Below are positions 43,408 through 48,534 of a DNA stretch of 64,000 nucleotides, piece after piece. The stretch spans positions 8,504,501 to 8,568,500 of the forward strand of contig NZ_CP147913.1 in the NCBI RefSeq assembly GCF_037414475.1, given 5' to 3'. This DNA is from Myxococcus stipitatus. Its GTDB lineage: Bacteria > Myxococcota > Myxococcia > Myxococcales > Myxococcaceae. Under the pieces are notes generated by a model. It saw nothing but the letters and a program-made list of their open reading frames with translations. It was not told the origin of the DNA and ran no database searches. Both the position numbers and the translations under genes were made by a program. The first letter of the stretch is position 1, and every line of letters begins with the position of its first letter.

Positions 43408-43521
43408 CTACAGCTCCTGTTCCAACCAGCGGATGATGGCCTCGCGGATGGACGAGGGGCGCTCGGCGCCCTTCGAAACCCGCGTGGGCAGGGGCGCCCA
43501 CGCGAGGTGAGGCCCTCTCAC
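43408..43521 (-). CDS. possible 37-residue peptide overlapping the ribbon-helix-helix gene
   Basis: A GTG at 43521 overlaps the stop of the ribbon-helix-helix gene in a GTGA arrangement and opens a 37-codon frame ending in RPSSIREAIIRWLEQEL. This tail resembles a helix of an antitoxin-like protein. The 4-bp overlap favours real translation, but the peptide is too short to judge by itself. Confidence 0.25.
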   Translation of the reverse strand: MRGPHLAWAPLPTRVSKGAERPSSIREAIIRWLEQEL

Positions 43522-43775
43522 GACTGGCCTTCTTCCTTGGCCGCGCCGCGCCCGTACTTGCCGAGCAGGTCATCCACGGCCTCGCGCAGGTACTCGCTCT
43601 GGTGGATGCGGGTGCGCCGCGCCAGCTCGCGCAGCTTCTGGACCTGCTCCTCCGGCACCAGCACGTGCGTGGAGACGATGTCGGCGTCGGGCCCACGTGC
43701 GTCGACGGACACCTCGGCGGCCGCCGGGGAAGGGGCAAGCTCGGGACTCAGGGTGCTGGGGTTTCCATCTTGCAT
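43518..43775 (-). CDS. ribbon-helix-helix (CopG-type) DNA-binding protein
   Basis: An 85-residue protein. Residues about 35-75 (STHVLVPEEQVQKLRELARR followed by HQSEYLREAVDDLLGKY) form a CopG/MetJ-like ribbon-helix-helix: a short beta strand plus two helices that bind DNA as a dimer. Such proteins are autorepressors or antitoxins. A strong AGGAGG ribosome site precedes the ATG at 43775. No obvious toxin gene neighbours it. Confidence 0.82.
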   Translation of the reverse strand: MQDGNPSTLSPELAPSPAAAEVSVDARGPDADIVSTHVLVPEEQVQKLRELARRTRIHQSEYLREAVDDLLGKYGRGAAKEEGQS

Positions 43776-43902
43776 CGGGGGTTCCTCCTGGCGTGGCGCT
43801 ACAGGCCGCTACCGGCCTGTCCGGGCATTAGGAGGGTGGTCCGAGGACTCGTCAAAAAAACGGCCCGGGAGCCAAGGGGCATGTCTGACCCCTTTGTTAT
43901 CT

Positions 43903-43929
43903 GTTTTCTCAGATTGGTGTGCTATTGCG
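43903..43929 (+). promoter_or_regulatory. upstream element shared with the paralogue at 44646
   Basis: The stretch from GTTTTCTCAG to GCTATTGCG can be aligned with GTTTGTCAGG to GTTATTGTG before the 44705 gene. The leaders also share CACCTGGAGC just before the start codons. Likely a common promoter plus ribosome site inherited by duplication. Confidence 0.4.
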
Positions 43930-43954
43930 CGCCCTTCTCACCTGGAGCCGACTG

Positions 43955-44530
43955 ATGAACTTTCGTGGATTGATTGTTTCCGCTGTCGCTGTTCTTGCGT
44001 CCTCTGCCTTCGCGGATGGGGTTCGTGCCCCCCTGTCCGTGGCGACTGGCTCCGTCGTCGCGCAGTCGTGTCAGCCGAAGCCGTTCTCCCTGACGGCCAT
44101 CAACGCCTCCTCCCTGGAGCCCACGCGGCTGACGTGGAACCAGGGCTCCAACTGGGGCGCGTGGCACTACATGGACACCATCTCCGCCTACGTCACCCCG
44201 GAGTGCCCCGCGACGCCCGTGACGATGCAGGCCGTGGTGGACGAGGTGTCGTGGATGCACCAGGGCATGCCGGCCTCCGAAGATGGGACGTTCACCAACC
44301 GGGCGGGTCTGTCGCAGAGTGTCTTCCTGTCCTCGAACTACTACGGCAACGGCCTTGCGGTGCTGGCGGCCATTGACGCGTTCGCGGGTGGTGGCGAGGT
44401 CCAGGCCTGGATTGCGAACCAGGAAGTGCCTTGCCACAACTGCCACGAGTTCCAGGAGTACGCGGTGCTGTACTACCCGGCGACCCGCAAGGTCATCGTG
44501 CTGCAGGGCTACACCGGCTACGATTCCTGA
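43955..44530 (+). CDS. small secreted protein with C-terminal CHNCH domain
   Basis: A 191-residue protein with a signal peptide (FRGLIVSAVAVLASSAFADG). Nearly all of the mature protein is a domain shared with the C-terminal 140 residues of the protein encoded at 44705: TNRAGLSQSVFL, YGNGLAVLAAIDAFAGGGEV, VPCHNCHEF, AVLYYPATRKVIVLQGYTGY. The CHNCH motif fits CXXCH, the haem-c attachment signature, but a single CXXCH plus other cysteines (QSCQP, PECPA) could equally form disulfides or bind metal. ATG 43955 is chosen because the signal peptide begins there. I do not recognise the family. Confidence 0.75.
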   Translation: MNFRGLIVSAVAVLASSAFADGVRAPLSVATGSVVAQSCQPKPFSLTAINASSLEPTRLTWNQGSNWGAWHYMDTISAYVTPECPATPVTMQAVVDEVSWMHQGMPASEDGTFTNRAGLSQSVFLSSNYYGNGLAVLAAIDAFAGGGEVQAWIANQEVPCHNCHEFQEYAVLYYPATRKVIVLQGYTGYDS

Positions 44531-44548
44531 GTGAATCCGAAGTGAGCG

Positions 44549-44584
44549 CGGCGCCGGTCCCTGTTCTGGGGCCGGCGCCGTTTG
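44549..44584 (+). terminator. rho-independent terminator after the 43955 gene
   Basis: A perfect 9-bp GC stem (CGGCGCCGG / CCGGCGCCG) with a 14-nt loop is followed by TTTG, 18 bp past the stop codon. Confidence 0.75.
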
Positions 44585-44645
44585 TATTACATGTATCAAC
44601 TCAGAGGGGCTTCGGCGTTCGCGGTGTGACGGGATTGATACGTCC

Positions 44646-44671
44646 GTTTGTCAGGTGGTCACGTTATTGTG
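44646..44671 (+). promoter_or_regulatory. upstream element shared with the paralogue at 43903
   Basis: GTTTGTCAGG to GTTATTGTG aligns with the element 26-52 bp upstream of the smaller paralogue's start. It sits 34-59 bp before the start codon at 44705. Likely part of the same promoter type. Confidence 0.4.
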
Positions 44672-44704
44672 ATTATCCTGGAGTGACCCACCTGGAGCGG
44701 ACGG

Positions 44705-46087
44705 ATGAGTCTTCGCAATGGATTGATGGCGTTGTGTGTGGCTTGGGGTGTTGCGGGCTGTGGGGCGACGCAGCCGGAGCCGGTGACGGAGCAGGAGACG
44801 GGGGTCTCCGAGGCGGCGGCGACGGCCACGCGCATCTATGCGACGGAGGCGTCCCTGGAGTTGAGCTTCGAGACGATGGGGACCTTCGAGACGCGCAATG
44901 GCAGGCGGGTCATGGTCCTCCGGGCGACGGCCAATCGCTATCTCCAGGATGTGTTCAGCTTCATCCCGGATGATATCTACGGCGAGGCGAACGTCATCAG
45001 CGAGCGCCGGTTCGAAGTGGTGCTGGATGTGGAGAACGAGCTCAACGCGGTGTTGTCGGGCCTGCCGCTCTTTGTCGGGGTGAGCACCTTCACGGGCACG
45101 CCGACGCACTACACGGCGAAGATCGAGGTGTTCCCCCGGTTCTTCGACTTCCGTGGCTCGGAGGGGATGTGGGTCGACGAGAAGGTGGACCCGTACTTCG
45201 TGCAGACCGGGACGGGCAACGTCGTGTACCGGGGGCGGGTGGATGGGCCGCTCCAGTCGCTCGCGGTGACGGCGGCGGACGGGGTGCCGACGGTGTCGGC
45301 CTCGGGGGCGAATTCGTACCGACTGGACTGGTCCTATGTGACGGCGCATGAGGCGATGGATCCGCACACGGTGCCGCTGACCTTCACGGCGAGCCTGGTG
45401 GACGGGTCGACGGTGCAGAAGACGGCGCGGCTGGTTCCGAGGGTGACGAGCCTGGCGCTCACCACGGGGGATGCCTACGAGGTCTGGCCGACGCCGGAGT
45501 GCCAGCTGCCCGTGTACAACTGCATCCACGCGCAGCCGCAGGGGACGACGGACTACGCGGCGTGTGGGACGTTCCGGCAGGTGCAGCGTTGCTGGTACGT
45601 GAACGACATCTGTGGCGCGACGACGCCGCAGGCCCTCTCGCTGGAGCCGCGTGACGCGGCCTCGCTGGAGCCGGCGCGGTTGGCGTGGAACGTGGGGTCC
45701 AATGGGGGTGTGTGGTATGGGCTGAAGCCCATCGAGGCGTACTCCACGCCGCAGTGCCCGCAGTCGCCGCCGACGCTCCAGGGCATCTTCGAGAAGCTCC
45801 AGTGGTCCGCGGAGTACCGGGACATGCCCGGCTTCGAGAGCGGCACTGTCACCAACCGGGAGGGCCTGGCGCAGAGCGTGTTCCTGGGGAACAGCGGCTA
45901 CGGCAATGGCGTCGCGCTGCTGTCGGCGCTGGACGCCTACGCGGGTGGGGGCGAGGTCCAGGCATGGTTCGCCACCAGTGAGGTGCCGTGCCACAACTGC
46001 CACGAGTTCAACCGGTTCGCGGTGCTCTACTACCCGGCCACCCGCACGGTCATCGTGCTCCAGGGGTACACGGGTTACGACTCGTGA
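44705..46087 (+). CDS. lipoprotein paralogue with C-terminal CHNCH domain
   Basis: A 460-residue protein with a lipobox signal (ALCVAWGVAGC). Residues about 45-280 are a beta-rich N-terminal region of unknown family. The C-terminal 140 residues are clearly related to the mature part of the 43955 product: VTNREGLAQSVFL, GYGNGVALLSALDAYAGGGE, VPCHNCHEF and the identical ending QGYTGYDS. A region with extra cysteines (AACGTFRQVQRCWYVNDICG) precedes the shared domain. The pair arose by duplication or domain fusion. Function is unknown; secretion and conserved cysteines point to a surface or extracellular role. The promoter leader also resembles that of 43955. Confidence 0.75.
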   Translation: MSLRNGLMALCVAWGVAGCGATQPEPVTEQETGVSEAAATATRIYATEASLELSFETMGTFETRNGRRVMVLRATANRYLQDVFSFIPDDIYGEANVISERRFEVVLDVENELNAVLSGLPLFVGVSTFTGTPTHYTAKIEVFPRFFDFRGSEGMWVDEKVDPYFVQTGTGNVVYRGRVDGPLQSLAVTAADGVPTVSASGANSYRLDWSYVTAHEAMDPHTVPLTFTASLVDGSTVQKTARLVPRVTSLALTTGDAYEVWPTPECQLPVYNCIHAQPQGTTDYAACGTFRQVQRCWYVNDICGATTPQALSLEPRDAASLEPARLAWNVGSNGGVWYGLKPIEAYSTPQCPQSPPTLQGIFEKLQWSAEYRDMPGFESGTVTNREGLAQSVFLGNSGYGNGVALLSALDAYAGGGEVQAWFATSEVPCHNCHEFNRFAVLYYPATRTVIVLQGYTGYDS

Positions 46088-46165
46088 GGTGACGCTGGGG
46101 CCCGGGTGGGAAGCGAGTCCGGCTTCCTGCCTGGGTGGGCTGGGCGCACATGGGCGGCCCCTTCG

Positions 46166-46561
46166 CTATACCTTCTTGGCCTTGGGCGCGCGCCTGGACG
46201 AGGGGGAGGGCTTGGGCGCAGCCCGTGGGGCCACGGCCGCCGGTTCGGTCGAGGCACCTCCCGGAGCCGCCGCGGGCGCCTGCGCCGCCAAGAGCTGCTG
46301 TCGCGCACGGGAGCTGAAGTTGGGGTTGGTCGTCCACCAGTCCAGGCCCATCTCCTGCGCCCGCTCCACCGAGCAGATGATGAGTCGGATCTGGATGGTC
46401 AGCAGCTCGACGTTCGTCAGATTGATCTTGATGTCCCCGGTGATGACGATGCCCTTGTCCAACACGCGCTCGAGGATGTCGGCCACGGAGCTGCTGCGGG
46501 TCGAGGTGGGCGGGTAGTGTCGCTGAGGGGACTCCGTCGCGCGATCATCGATTTGGGCCAT
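46166..46561 (-). CDS. gvpJ: gas vesicle protein GvpJ (GvpA family)
   Basis: A 131-residue protein. Residues about 25-80 carry the GvpA-family core (SVADILERVLDKGIVITGDI, LTNVELLTIQIRLIICSVER), followed by EMGLDWWTTNPNFSS, which is characteristic of GvpJ. The last 40 residues are an Ala/Pro/Lys-rich tail. GvpJ is a minor wall component that shapes the conical ends of gas vesicles. A GAGGAG ribosome site precedes the ATG. It is the last gene of the operon. Confidence 0.93.
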   Translation of the reverse strand: MAQIDDRATESPQRHYPPTSTRSSSVADILERVLDKGIVITGDIKINLTNVELLTIQIRLIICSVERAQEMGLDWWTTNPNFSSRARQQLLAAQAPAAAPGGASTEPAAVAPRAAPKPSPSSRRAPKAKKV

Positions 46562-46595
46562 GGCTCCTCGCTCCCTGTCCGCTGCGCGGCCAGCC

Positions 46596-46922
46596 TCACA
46601 GCGTCGTGCCGAGCGGCCCGAGGTCCAGATTCAGGTCCTCGTCCGTCAGGTGGAATTGCTTCTTCAAGGCATCCATCTGCTCCTGCAGGCGCAGGAAGGT
46701 GACGCCCAGCCTTTCAATCTGCTCCTCGCTCAGTGAGCCGCCGTCGATCCGGCGCAGCGCCTGCCTCTCCAGCAACTGGCGGATGAGCTCGACGACGGCG
46801 AGCACCAGCCGCACCAGCCCGGCCTGGACGTTCTCCTCGTCCAGCTCCAGCTTGGGCGGCTTCGTCGGCTCCAACGCCCGGGCAAGCTCCTCCACCGCCT
46901 GTGGTGCGCCCTCGACCGCCAT
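46596..46922 (-). CDS. gvpK: gas vesicle protein GvpK
   Basis: A 108-residue GvpK: LELDEENVQAGLVRLVLAVV, LIRQLLERQALRRIDGGSLS and EEQIERLGVTFLRLQEQMDA are typical of the family. GvpK is a conserved assembly protein of unknown biochemical activity. It follows gvpS by 48 bp, one of the larger gaps in the operon. Confidence 0.94.
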   Translation of the reverse strand: MAVEGAPQAVEELARALEPTKPPKLELDEENVQAGLVRLVLAVVELIRQLLERQALRRIDGGSLSEEQIERLGVTFLRLQEQMDALKKQFHLTDEDLNLDLGPLGTTL

Positions 46923-46970
46923 CGTTCACCCCGTCATTCATCTCGCGTTTGGGCGGGTCCTCCTCCCGCC

Positions 46971-47192
46971 TCACTGCAGGTGCTGCGGAGGTTCGGAAAG
47001 GGTGCCCACCTCCAGCGCCGTCTCCACCGAGGTCAACAGCAGCCGCAGGCCCAGGTAGATGAGGTCCACGTCGGCCACCGAAATCACCAGGTCACCGCTG
47101 ATGACCACGCCCTTGTTGAGCACCCGGTCCAGCAGCTCCAACACCGAGGCGCGCTCCTGCTGTGCCTCGGGTGTCTGCGCCGGTCCGTTCAT
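46971..47192 (-). CDS. gvpS: gas vesicle protein GvpS (short GvpA-family member)
   Basis: A 73-residue GvpA-family protein: SVLELLDRVLNKGVVISGDL followed by VISVADVDLIYLGLRLLLTS. The VDLIYLGLR form matches GvpS of actinobacterial gas vesicle clusters. It overlaps gvpG by 4 bp and probably acts as a minor wall or nucleation component. Confidence 0.88.
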   Translation of the reverse strand: MNGPAQTPEAQQERASVLELLDRVLNKGVVISGDLVISVADVDLIYLGLRLLLTSVETALEVGTLSEPPQHLQ

Positions 47193-47470
47193 CTGTTCTC
47201 ACCTCCAGGGCCTGTTTCAGGAGGCGCAGGCCCTTGCCCCTTCCGCGCCTCCTTCAACGCGTCCAGGCGGTCGAGCAGCTGCGACTCCTGCTCGTCGAAC
47301 TGCTCCTCCGTTATCTCGCCGCGCTCGAGCTCCCGGTACAGGTCGCTCAGGCGGGCGCGGAGGTCGGTCTGCTCCTTGGCCTGTTCGTCCTGTACGGCCT
47401 TGTGCACCGAGCGGAAGATCCACGCGATGCTCCGGACAGGGGCCATCAGGATGTCGTCCAGGATGATCAA
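47189..47470 (-). CDS. gvpG: gas vesicle protein GvpG
   Basis: A 93-residue protein: MIILDDILMAPVRSIAWIFR followed by a charged coiled-coil region (LRARLSDLYRELERGEITEE). This fits GvpG, an accessory protein required with GvpF and GvpL. It overlaps both neighbours by 4 bp. Confidence 0.93.
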   Translation of the reverse strand: MIILDDILMAPVRSIAWIFRSVHKAVQDEQAKEQTDLRARLSDLYRELERGEITEEQFDEQESQLLDRLDALKEARKGQGPAPPETGPGGENR

Positions 47471-48279
47471 GGCGCCCCCTGTGCTGCCTCCTCCTCCTCC
47501 TGCTCGAAGTGGATTCGCAGATGGGTGAAGTTGTACGGCGGCCAGGGGCCGGTCACGTCCACCTGGAAGTTCTCGGGCAGCGTCGCGGCCAGCTTTTCCA
47601 CGGCCGCGTTGAAGGCGTTGACCTTCTTTTGTGGCACCAGCGCGGCCAGATTCACCACCTCCGACTCATTGCGCGGCTCGTTGACCAGGGTCTGGCTGGC
47701 CACGGACTTGATTCCAGCGAGCACCCTGTCGGCGGTCTCCTCACGGAAGCCGTTGAGCATGTCGACGAAGCGCTTGCCCAGCTCGATCTTCTCTTCGCGC
47801 GACGGTTCCCCCTCGCGGTAGAGGTCGTCCCGCATCGCCTCGAGCTCGGGGAAGGCGTTGACGTAGTACCCGAACGCATTGGGGTCGCTCAGCCGGATTC
47901 GAAGGCCCAGCTCCACGTTCCCGCTCACCGCACGGAGCTGCGTGAGGAAGTCATTCTCGTGCTCTGCCAGGAGGTTCCGGACCTCCCGCTCGCTGCCGGC
48001 AATGATGCCGAACGCGACCGGCAGCATCGGCGCCTGGTCCATCACGTGGCCCAGCACCTTGCTGTGGGTGCTGAGGAGTTTGCGCTCCGGCCGAAGCGTC
48101 TGCTGCTCGATATCGCTGACGATGGCCGCCAGTTGTCCGGAGGTCACCGGGTGCAGGTCTGTATCCTCGATGCCGGGAATGTCGAGGTCGAGTGAGTCGA
48201 CCACCTCCATCGGAACCACCGCGTACAGGTAGCGTCCGTCTGGGGTGGACTTCTCGTGTCGAGTCTTGGCGCGTGGCAT
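47467..48279 (-). CDS. gas vesicle protein GvpF/GvpL family, copy 3
   Basis: About 270 residues. The N-terminal YLYAVVPMEVVDSLDLDIPG, middle PMLPVAFGIIAGSEREVRNL and C-terminal VDVTGPWPPYNFTHLRI are the GvpF/L signature. GvpF/L proteins are accessory or wall-associated; F interacts with GvpA. Two ATGs compete: 48297 has no clear ribosome site, whereas 48279 is preceded by AAAGGA at good spacing and is preferred. F and L cannot be told apart reliably from sequence. Confidence 0.9.
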   Translation of the reverse strand: MPRAKTRHEKSTPDGRYLYAVVPMEVVDSLDLDIPGIEDTDLHPVTSGQLAAIVSDIEQQTLRPERKLLSTHSKVLGHVMDQAPMLPVAFGIIAGSEREVRNLLAEHENDFLTQLRAVSGNVELGLRIRLSDPNAFGYYVNAFPELEAMRDDLYREGEPSREEKIELGKRFVDMLNGFREETADRVLAGIKSVASQTLVNEPRNESEVVNLAALVPQKKVNAFNAAVEKLAATLPENFQVDVTGPWPPYNFTHLRIHFEQEEEEAAQGAP

Positions 48280-48309
48280 GACGTTGTCCTTTCCCATTCA
48301 AGTGGGGAT

Positions 48310-48534
48310 TCAGACCGCGGCAGGCGCGGCCGCGGCGGCGGTGAGTCCGATGGCGTCGGCGTACTTGAGGTAGGTCTCGACCGAAGCGATCACGACGCGT
48401 GCCTCGATCGAGAGCACTTCGATGCCGACCAGCGAGACCTTCACCCAGGCATCGACCACGATTCCCTTGTCGAGGATCCGGTCGATGACGTCGCCCAACG
48501 AGGACGTCCCGGTAGAAGTTGAGACATTGGCCAT
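48310..48534 (-). CDS. gvpA: gas vesicle structural protein GvpA
   Basis: A 74-residue protein with the classical GvpA core: [53 protein letters not shown]. GvpA forms the hydrophobic ribs of the gas vesicle wall. A good AAAGGA ribosome site precedes it. It sits in the middle of the operon between two GvpF/L genes, separated by 7 and 30 bp, rather than at the front as in many clusters. Confidence 0.96.

Follow-up and report, generated by a model that had tools for sequence, protein, structure and literature searches.

A predicted surface lipoprotein of Myxococcus stipitatus and an adjacent, presumably secreted copy of its cysteine-bearing head domain

Two adjacent genes of Myxococcus stipitatus were found to encode putative exported proteins that share one cysteine-bearing domain. 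They are located in a stretch of 64,000 nucleotides (hereinafter referred to as the window; NCBI RefSeq assembly GCF_037414475.1, contig NZ_CP147913.1, positions 8,504,501 to 8,568,500 of the forward strand). Our preferred reading, to which we give a probability of roughly one half, is that the larger protein is an outer-membrane display lipoprotein with a disulfide-stabilised head, that the smaller one is a freed soluble copy of this head, and that the CXNC motif present in both is structural and not a haem site. The 460-aa lipoprotein would then consist of a lipid anchor, a flexible tether, two stalk domains predicted to be beta-sandwiches, a disulfide neck and a predicted alpha/beta binding head, and the 191-aa protein would be the same head without the anchor.

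Gene pair and shared domain

The gene for the small, putatively secreted protein (43955..44530, + strand, 191 aa) encodes a type I signal peptide and the head domain alone. The signal peptide (residues 1-21, ending in ...SAFA before DG), judged by eye from the sequence, lacks a lipobox Cys. The head spans residues 38-191 (44066..44527, + strand) with Cys at residues 39, 84, 160, and 163, and its CHNCH motif (residues 160-164; 44432..44446, + strand) falls in the turn of a predicted beta-hairpin. The lipoprotein gene (44705..46087, + strand, 460 aa) follows in the same direction after a gap of 174 bases. A terminator-like hairpin, recognised as a consensus match only, lies between the two genes (44548..44581, + strand; 14 pairs, 12 of them G-C). 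The lipoprotein carries its lipobox Cys at residue 19 (44759..44761, + strand), with Gly at +2 and Glu at +7, which fits outer-membrane sorting. It continues with a stalk (residues 43-253; 44831..45463, + strand) of two predicted, weakly matched beta-sandwich (Ig-like) domains and a Cys-rich neck (45500..45613, + strand) containing Cys 266, 273, 287, and 296 plus Cys 303, which goes with the head. The head itself (residues 304-460; 45614..46084, + strand) contains Cys 351, 429, and 432, and the second CHNCH motif occupies residues 429-433 (45989..46003, + strand).

Residues 41-191 of the small protein were aligned to lipoprotein residues 308-460 with a BLOSUM62 score of 517 (best of 200 shuffles, 59). 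Identity was 60% over small-protein residues 38-191, and both VPCHNCHEF and the QGYTGYDS end were identical in the two proteins. The initial annotation had described tandem secreted paralogues, the small one being almost only the end domain of the lipoprotein, with these two stretches in common; this description was borne out, coordinates included. The 10.3 Mb genome yielded no further copy. A gene for a ribbon-helix-helix protein (RHH_3; 43518-43775, - strand) is located upstream of the small gene and is divergent from it, and a gas vesicle cluster (three GvpA-type genes, GvpK, GvpG, and GvpL/F by Pfam; 46166-48534, - strand) comes immediately after the lipoprotein gene and is convergent with it.

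Occurrence of the family in Myxococcota

A full-protein profile matched 59 of 195 Myxococcota genomes. When genome contigs were scanned, the alignment gave 44 loci, and a pattern made from the small protein alone gave no relative. Intact head-only small genes occurred in nine genomes, all belonging to the genus of the window (Myxococcus). Sixteen genomes were flagged for stalk-only genes, whose profile match is interrupted by a stop shortly after the neck. At nine such loci from Corallococcus, Archangium, Hyalangium, and a MAG (L125-L132, L134), the stop comes directly after ...RCTY. Stop read-through was rejected for these nine loci, the codon being TGA in six and TAG in three with no head-like frame behind it. 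Another locus (L133) runs approximately 20 residues past the neck and then stops.

Distant MAGs (L136-L138, L141, L142, L144) join the N-terminal part of the family to other C-termini, and no Pfam match passed its cut-off in the five that were scanned (L136, L138, L141, L142, L144). L136 ends in VVLYFSGAARLVVFTLR, like the last strand pair of the head. Distant heads were also present in other lipoproteins (L145, L146), in L146 together with a sub-threshold PPC domain. In one genome (G012) the tandem array has three copies, the additional one being a second lipoprotein whose motif reads CQNCH (L061, 6609-9606). The Gemmatimonadaceae MAG that carries L118 may be misbinned.

Conservation of the CXNC motif and cysteine sets

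The motif was counted in 59 complete heads; frames shorter than 120 aa, broken copies, copies cut by the locus end, and duplicates were left out. The broken or short rows dropped in this way were L071, L072, L073, L099, L148, L149, L027, and the collapsed copy in L006/L039, and the distant heads L139, L145, and L146 were dropped as well. CHNCH was found in 41 heads, CHNCT in 7, CQNCH in 4, CPNCH and CNNCH in 3 each, and CLNCH in 1. Both motif Cys and the Asn were kept in 59/59 heads and the last His in 52/59, the first His also being variable; the Cys are thus conserved over the His. CHNCT requires a minimum of two changes, one in a Polyangium-side group of five and one in a pair inside the genus, as counted on a quick tree in which one of the seven (L026) forms a long branch. 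The within-genus pair is nested among CHNCH rows, and its sisters have His. In 53 heads, the columns that are invariant or nearly so (90%) contained no Met and no His other than that of the motif. Of the dropped rows, L073 reads CHNRH, and L145 and L146 are without CXXC.

Eight Cys follow the lipobox in 44/44 full proteins of alignment A2, in which row L044 prints nine, its lipobox falling beyond the cut used. The same number was found in five of six further full proteins (L113, L116-L119), the sixth (L143) having ten, so that the total is eight in 49/50. Mature small proteins contained exactly four Cys (9/9), and stalk-only proteins contained the four neck Cys and ended before the fifth (9/9). 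For the most part, the eight fall into two sets, Cys 266, 273, 287, and 296 of the neck and Cys 303, 351, 429, and 432 of the head, and in either set the Cys could all form pairs among themselves. Exceptions were L133, with six (a counterpart of Cys303 and one new), and L143, with two extra head Cys, both numbers being even. In the distant heads (L145, L146) Cys351 has no counterpart, and each has a single Cys in the hairpin and another as its last residue; L145 also has no Cys at the position of Cys303. L133, L143, and L146 make the division between neck and head less clean. Because the sets are even in whole, head-only, and stalk-only proteins, they probably represent structural disulfides that use both motif Cys, one of them within CXNC. 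The motif would then be a structural element at the tip of a beta-hairpin, with a likely disulfide Cys429-Cys432 in the lipoprotein, and Cys303-Cys351 would be the other bridge of the head.

Predicted folds and family searches

The model of the head (mean pLDDT 90.6, pTM 0.84) was alpha/beta, with CXXC between strands 129-137 and 142-153. Foldseek gave no match at E ≤ 0.001 with the head or the full-length model. In VIA-align, four Maf1 chains came first for the head (Z 10.3, 10.2, 9.7, and 8.9), the best with an rmsd of 3.8 over 132 of 170 residues (5u50_B) and the next with 3.6 over 135. NuiA (2o3b) was matched by the head at Z 5.7 (rmsd 3.9 over 109 residues) and by the full-length model at Z 5.8. 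According to the note of VIA-align itself, models that have no clear match often reach a best Z of 7 to 8, and on this scale the Maf1 match appears to be somewhat above noise and the NuiA match does not. Maf1 is a repressor of RNA polymerase III. The head shares only the predicted fold with Maf1 (5u50, 3nr5) and differs from it in sequence (9% identity), in being an exported bacterial protein, and in its Cys pairs; the modelled likeness is one of fold and carries no claim of kinship or function. For NuiA, the inhibitor of nuclease A, the likeness is also of fold only, with 7% and 6% identity and a Z within the range of common arrangements, and NuiA is named intracellular in its entry, whereas the head protein is exported. 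Literature searches found nothing joining Maf1 with NuiA or CHNCH with Myxococcus, and CHNCH was absent among the matches listed for CHNCH, lipoprotein, and myxobacteria.

The full-length model (pLDDT 86.2) had residues 1-38 under 50 and a disordered stretch after the lipobox. The stalk was matched weakly to Ig-type chains (Z ≤ 6.2, large rmsd), single domains mostly giving 3.3-4.0 Å over 78-89 residues at Z 5.0-5.6. In the model, the N-terminal part of the lipoprotein looks like two beta-sandwiches and a Cys-rich neck. Neither window protein reached a Pfam, NCBIfam, or PADLOC model, in agreement with the initial annotation, in which the family was not recognised. Among solved chains no match was better than E 0.097; the chitinase chains at that value and a cytochrome c3 chain (E 0.68) were taken as chance, as were DUF1454 (best E 0.0011, 2/53 heads) and a model of LptM on the signal peptide (best E 0.02, 6/44). 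A defence system was rejected on the lack of a PADLOC match, and a mobile element on the lack of a tblastn match (P0001 in plasmids, P0002 in phages).

The lipobox Cys was aligned in 44/44 full-length relatives. A passage of PMC5562445 gives the absence of Lys at +2 and of Ala at +7 as suggestive of the outer membrane for lipoproteins, and this pattern was present in 39/44, including the window lipoprotein, which points to an outer-membrane location.

Alternative explanations

The CHNCH motif had initially been read as that of haem c, in which case both proteins would be exported monohaem cytochromes. As in c-type cytochromes, the proteins look exported and most members of this lipoprotein/small-protein family have CXXCH, the last His being retained in 52/59, and the cytochrome c3 chain mentioned above was matched at chance level. 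If the sixth position of the haem were left open, no distal ligand would be required. Unlike in c-type cytochromes, Thr replaces the His in 7/59 heads, by at least two changes, one of which lies within the genus and is surrounded by CHNCH rows; CXXCH is therefore not invariant, and homologues without the second His do occur. Moreover, no further His or Met is conserved in the 53 heads, the motif is set in a predicted beta-hairpin, and no cytochrome family was found among the family-search matches. Since an invariant His and a conserved second ligand are missing and the Cys counts are even, the haem-c reading was rejected and is considered extremely unlikely. A redox-active dithiol would make the proteins extracytoplasmic thiol-disulfide enzymes; the Cys spacing, kept in 59/59, is that of oxidoreductases, but the motif lies between two strands of the model and not at a helix start, and no thioredoxin-type family was seen in the head family search or among the 50 fold matches listed, which leaves this explanation quite improbable. 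The four invariant head Cys might instead bind zinc or another metal, with CXNC as a knuckle at the beta-hairpin. The location of CXXC at the hairpin tip and the retention of two more Cys in 44/44 full and 9/9 small proteins speak for such a site. On the other side, the protein is exported, the adjoining four-Cys neck is most simply read as disulfides, and in L145 and L146 a last-residue Cys replaces the second motif Cys, a replacement more readily explained by a disulfide than by a metal site; we regard metal binding as unlikely.

The pair also has the layout of the SitA/SitB cassettes of Myxococcus, in which case the lipoprotein would carry a toxin and be transferred by outer membrane exchange, with the small protein in the role of SitB. 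A type I signal protein precedes the lipoprotein, the order of sitBA in the part of PMC5562445 that describes it, and the disordered stretch after the lipobox in our model has its parallel in a section of PMC8546572. The halves are modular, the N-terminal one being fused to other C-termini in distant Myxococcota, and in one genome (G003) a same-direction gene of 310 aa follows the lipoprotein. In contrast, the gene called next after the lipoprotein has the opposite orientation in the window and in three near relatives (G013, G008, G014), leaving no immunity gene there, and a terminator-like hairpin separates the two genes, whereas sitB1 overlaps sitA1 according to the same part of PMC5562445. 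The C-terminal head is conserved (53 rows) and not polymorphic, no nuclease family was among the family matches, and heads and stalks occur as stand-alone genes. The SitA-type toxin was thus rejected on gene context and the conserved C-terminus, and is very doubtful; as far as these sources describe the cassettes, the resemblance appears to be in layout only.

Origin and maintenance of the small gene

In the tree of 59 heads, a quick tree without bootstrap, the nine small heads formed one clade (SH-aLRT 94), which was sister to seven lipoprotein heads of the same genome place (85). One clade placed in this way beside the adjoining lipoprotein heads indicates one tandem duplication, which may have occurred in the ancestor of a Myxococcus subclade and been followed by internal deletion of stalk and neck and loss of the lipobox. 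Internal deletion is probably the simplest route to a small protein without these parts. With the anchor lost, the small protein would be exported as a soluble protein, expressed from its own transcription unit. Pairwise Nei-Gojobori dN/dS (point values only) was below 1 in 36/36 pairs of small genes (0.14-0.63) and in 21/21 lipoprotein pairs (0.19-0.64). In G025, the lipoprotein gene beside an open small gene has collapsed to a frame of 230 aa that has lost internal parts and is frame-shifted in places. Because of the frame shifts, it does not appear to be a clean example of an in-frame deletion, and an assembly error is possible there. In G004, the lipoprotein gene is reduced to a 5' remnant and the small gene is open.

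The leader of the small gene (43895..43954, + strand) contains TGTGCTAT at 43918-43925 and a ribosome-binding CACCTGGAGC at 43939-43948. That of the lipoprotein gene (44645..44704, + strand) contains a promoter-like TTGTCA-17-GATTAT (44648-44676), a consensus match only, and a ribosome-binding CACCTGGAGC at 44689-44698. Without gaps, 32/60 upstream bases agree, a level reached by 0/271 control gene starts (called by a simple gene finder in 32 neighbourhoods, many of them interrelated, after removal of 38 family starts). Of the 127,880 60-mers of the window, two reached 32 matches, and these were the leaders of the small gene and of its partner. With the first 45 coding bases included, the leaders scored 22.1, equalled by 0/271 controls from either side (best control 16.3); by themselves, the coding bases from +1 to +45 showed no more than a marginal likeness between the genes. 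Upstream of -16 alone the agreement was weak (18/44 matches, equalled by 1,085/127,880 in the window). Local alignment of the 60-nt leader alone was also weaker, with 1/271 (small gene against controls) and 3/271 (lipoprotein gene against controls) reaching the score. For 150 nt upstream, 60/1000 shuffles reached it, and with the last 30 bases removed from both leaders the alignment was no better than shuffles (720/1000). The signal consists mainly of the 14-nt ribosome-binding stretch CACCTGGAGC.GAC, plus TGTG at -37. CCTGGAG occurs within 30 nt of the start in 35/52 family genes (the assigned start being off in row L044), and much of the leader likeness is therefore family-wide and not private to the pair. 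The initial annotation had concluded that the upstream DNA is alike and that the promoter was duplicated; the duplication does appear to have taken the leader and first codons along, but most of the remaining likeness is the ribosome-binding region of the family. No Rfam match for an RNA element was found within 43500-46300.

Possible function and significance

In our judgement, binding is likelier than catalysis as the function of the head, because the 53 heads show no conserved polar residue set suggesting an active site beyond the Cys. If the small protein is a soluble copy of the displayed head, it may bind partners of the same class at a distance from the cell, serving as a decoy, a carrier, or a soluble binder. 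A wider reading, speculative and fairly unlikely in our estimate, is that myxobacteria use a Maf1/NuiA-type fold extracellularly as a lipid-anchored recognition head, that head and stalk have repeatedly been split into separate genes (stalk-only lipoproteins in Corallococcus and relatives, secreted heads in one Myxococcus subclade), and that the free head, being soluble, antagonises the anchored form or serves as its messenger. If true, this would be a receptor/soluble-receptor logic in bacteria, and if the free head and the anchored form share a ligand, this ligand would be a new participant in the interactions at the myxobacterial cell surface. In place of a false cytochrome lead, the analysis offers a putative three-module lipoprotein family of social predatory bacteria. 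The family is naturally cut into modules, so that head-only and stalk-only proteins could be tested without designed truncations.

Gene neighbourhoods of relatives

A ribbon-helix-helix gene in divergent orientation is present in 10 of the 32 neighbourhoods. Six others encode a secreted fn3-type protein shortly behind the lipoprotein and on its strand; such a gene is absent beside the present pair. The arrangement is a possible operon in those six and gives a lead to a partner. These secreted proteins (L083, L093-L096, L098) have 538-706 aa, with a near-threshold fn3 match in the one member scanned, and L095 contains three of them in a row.
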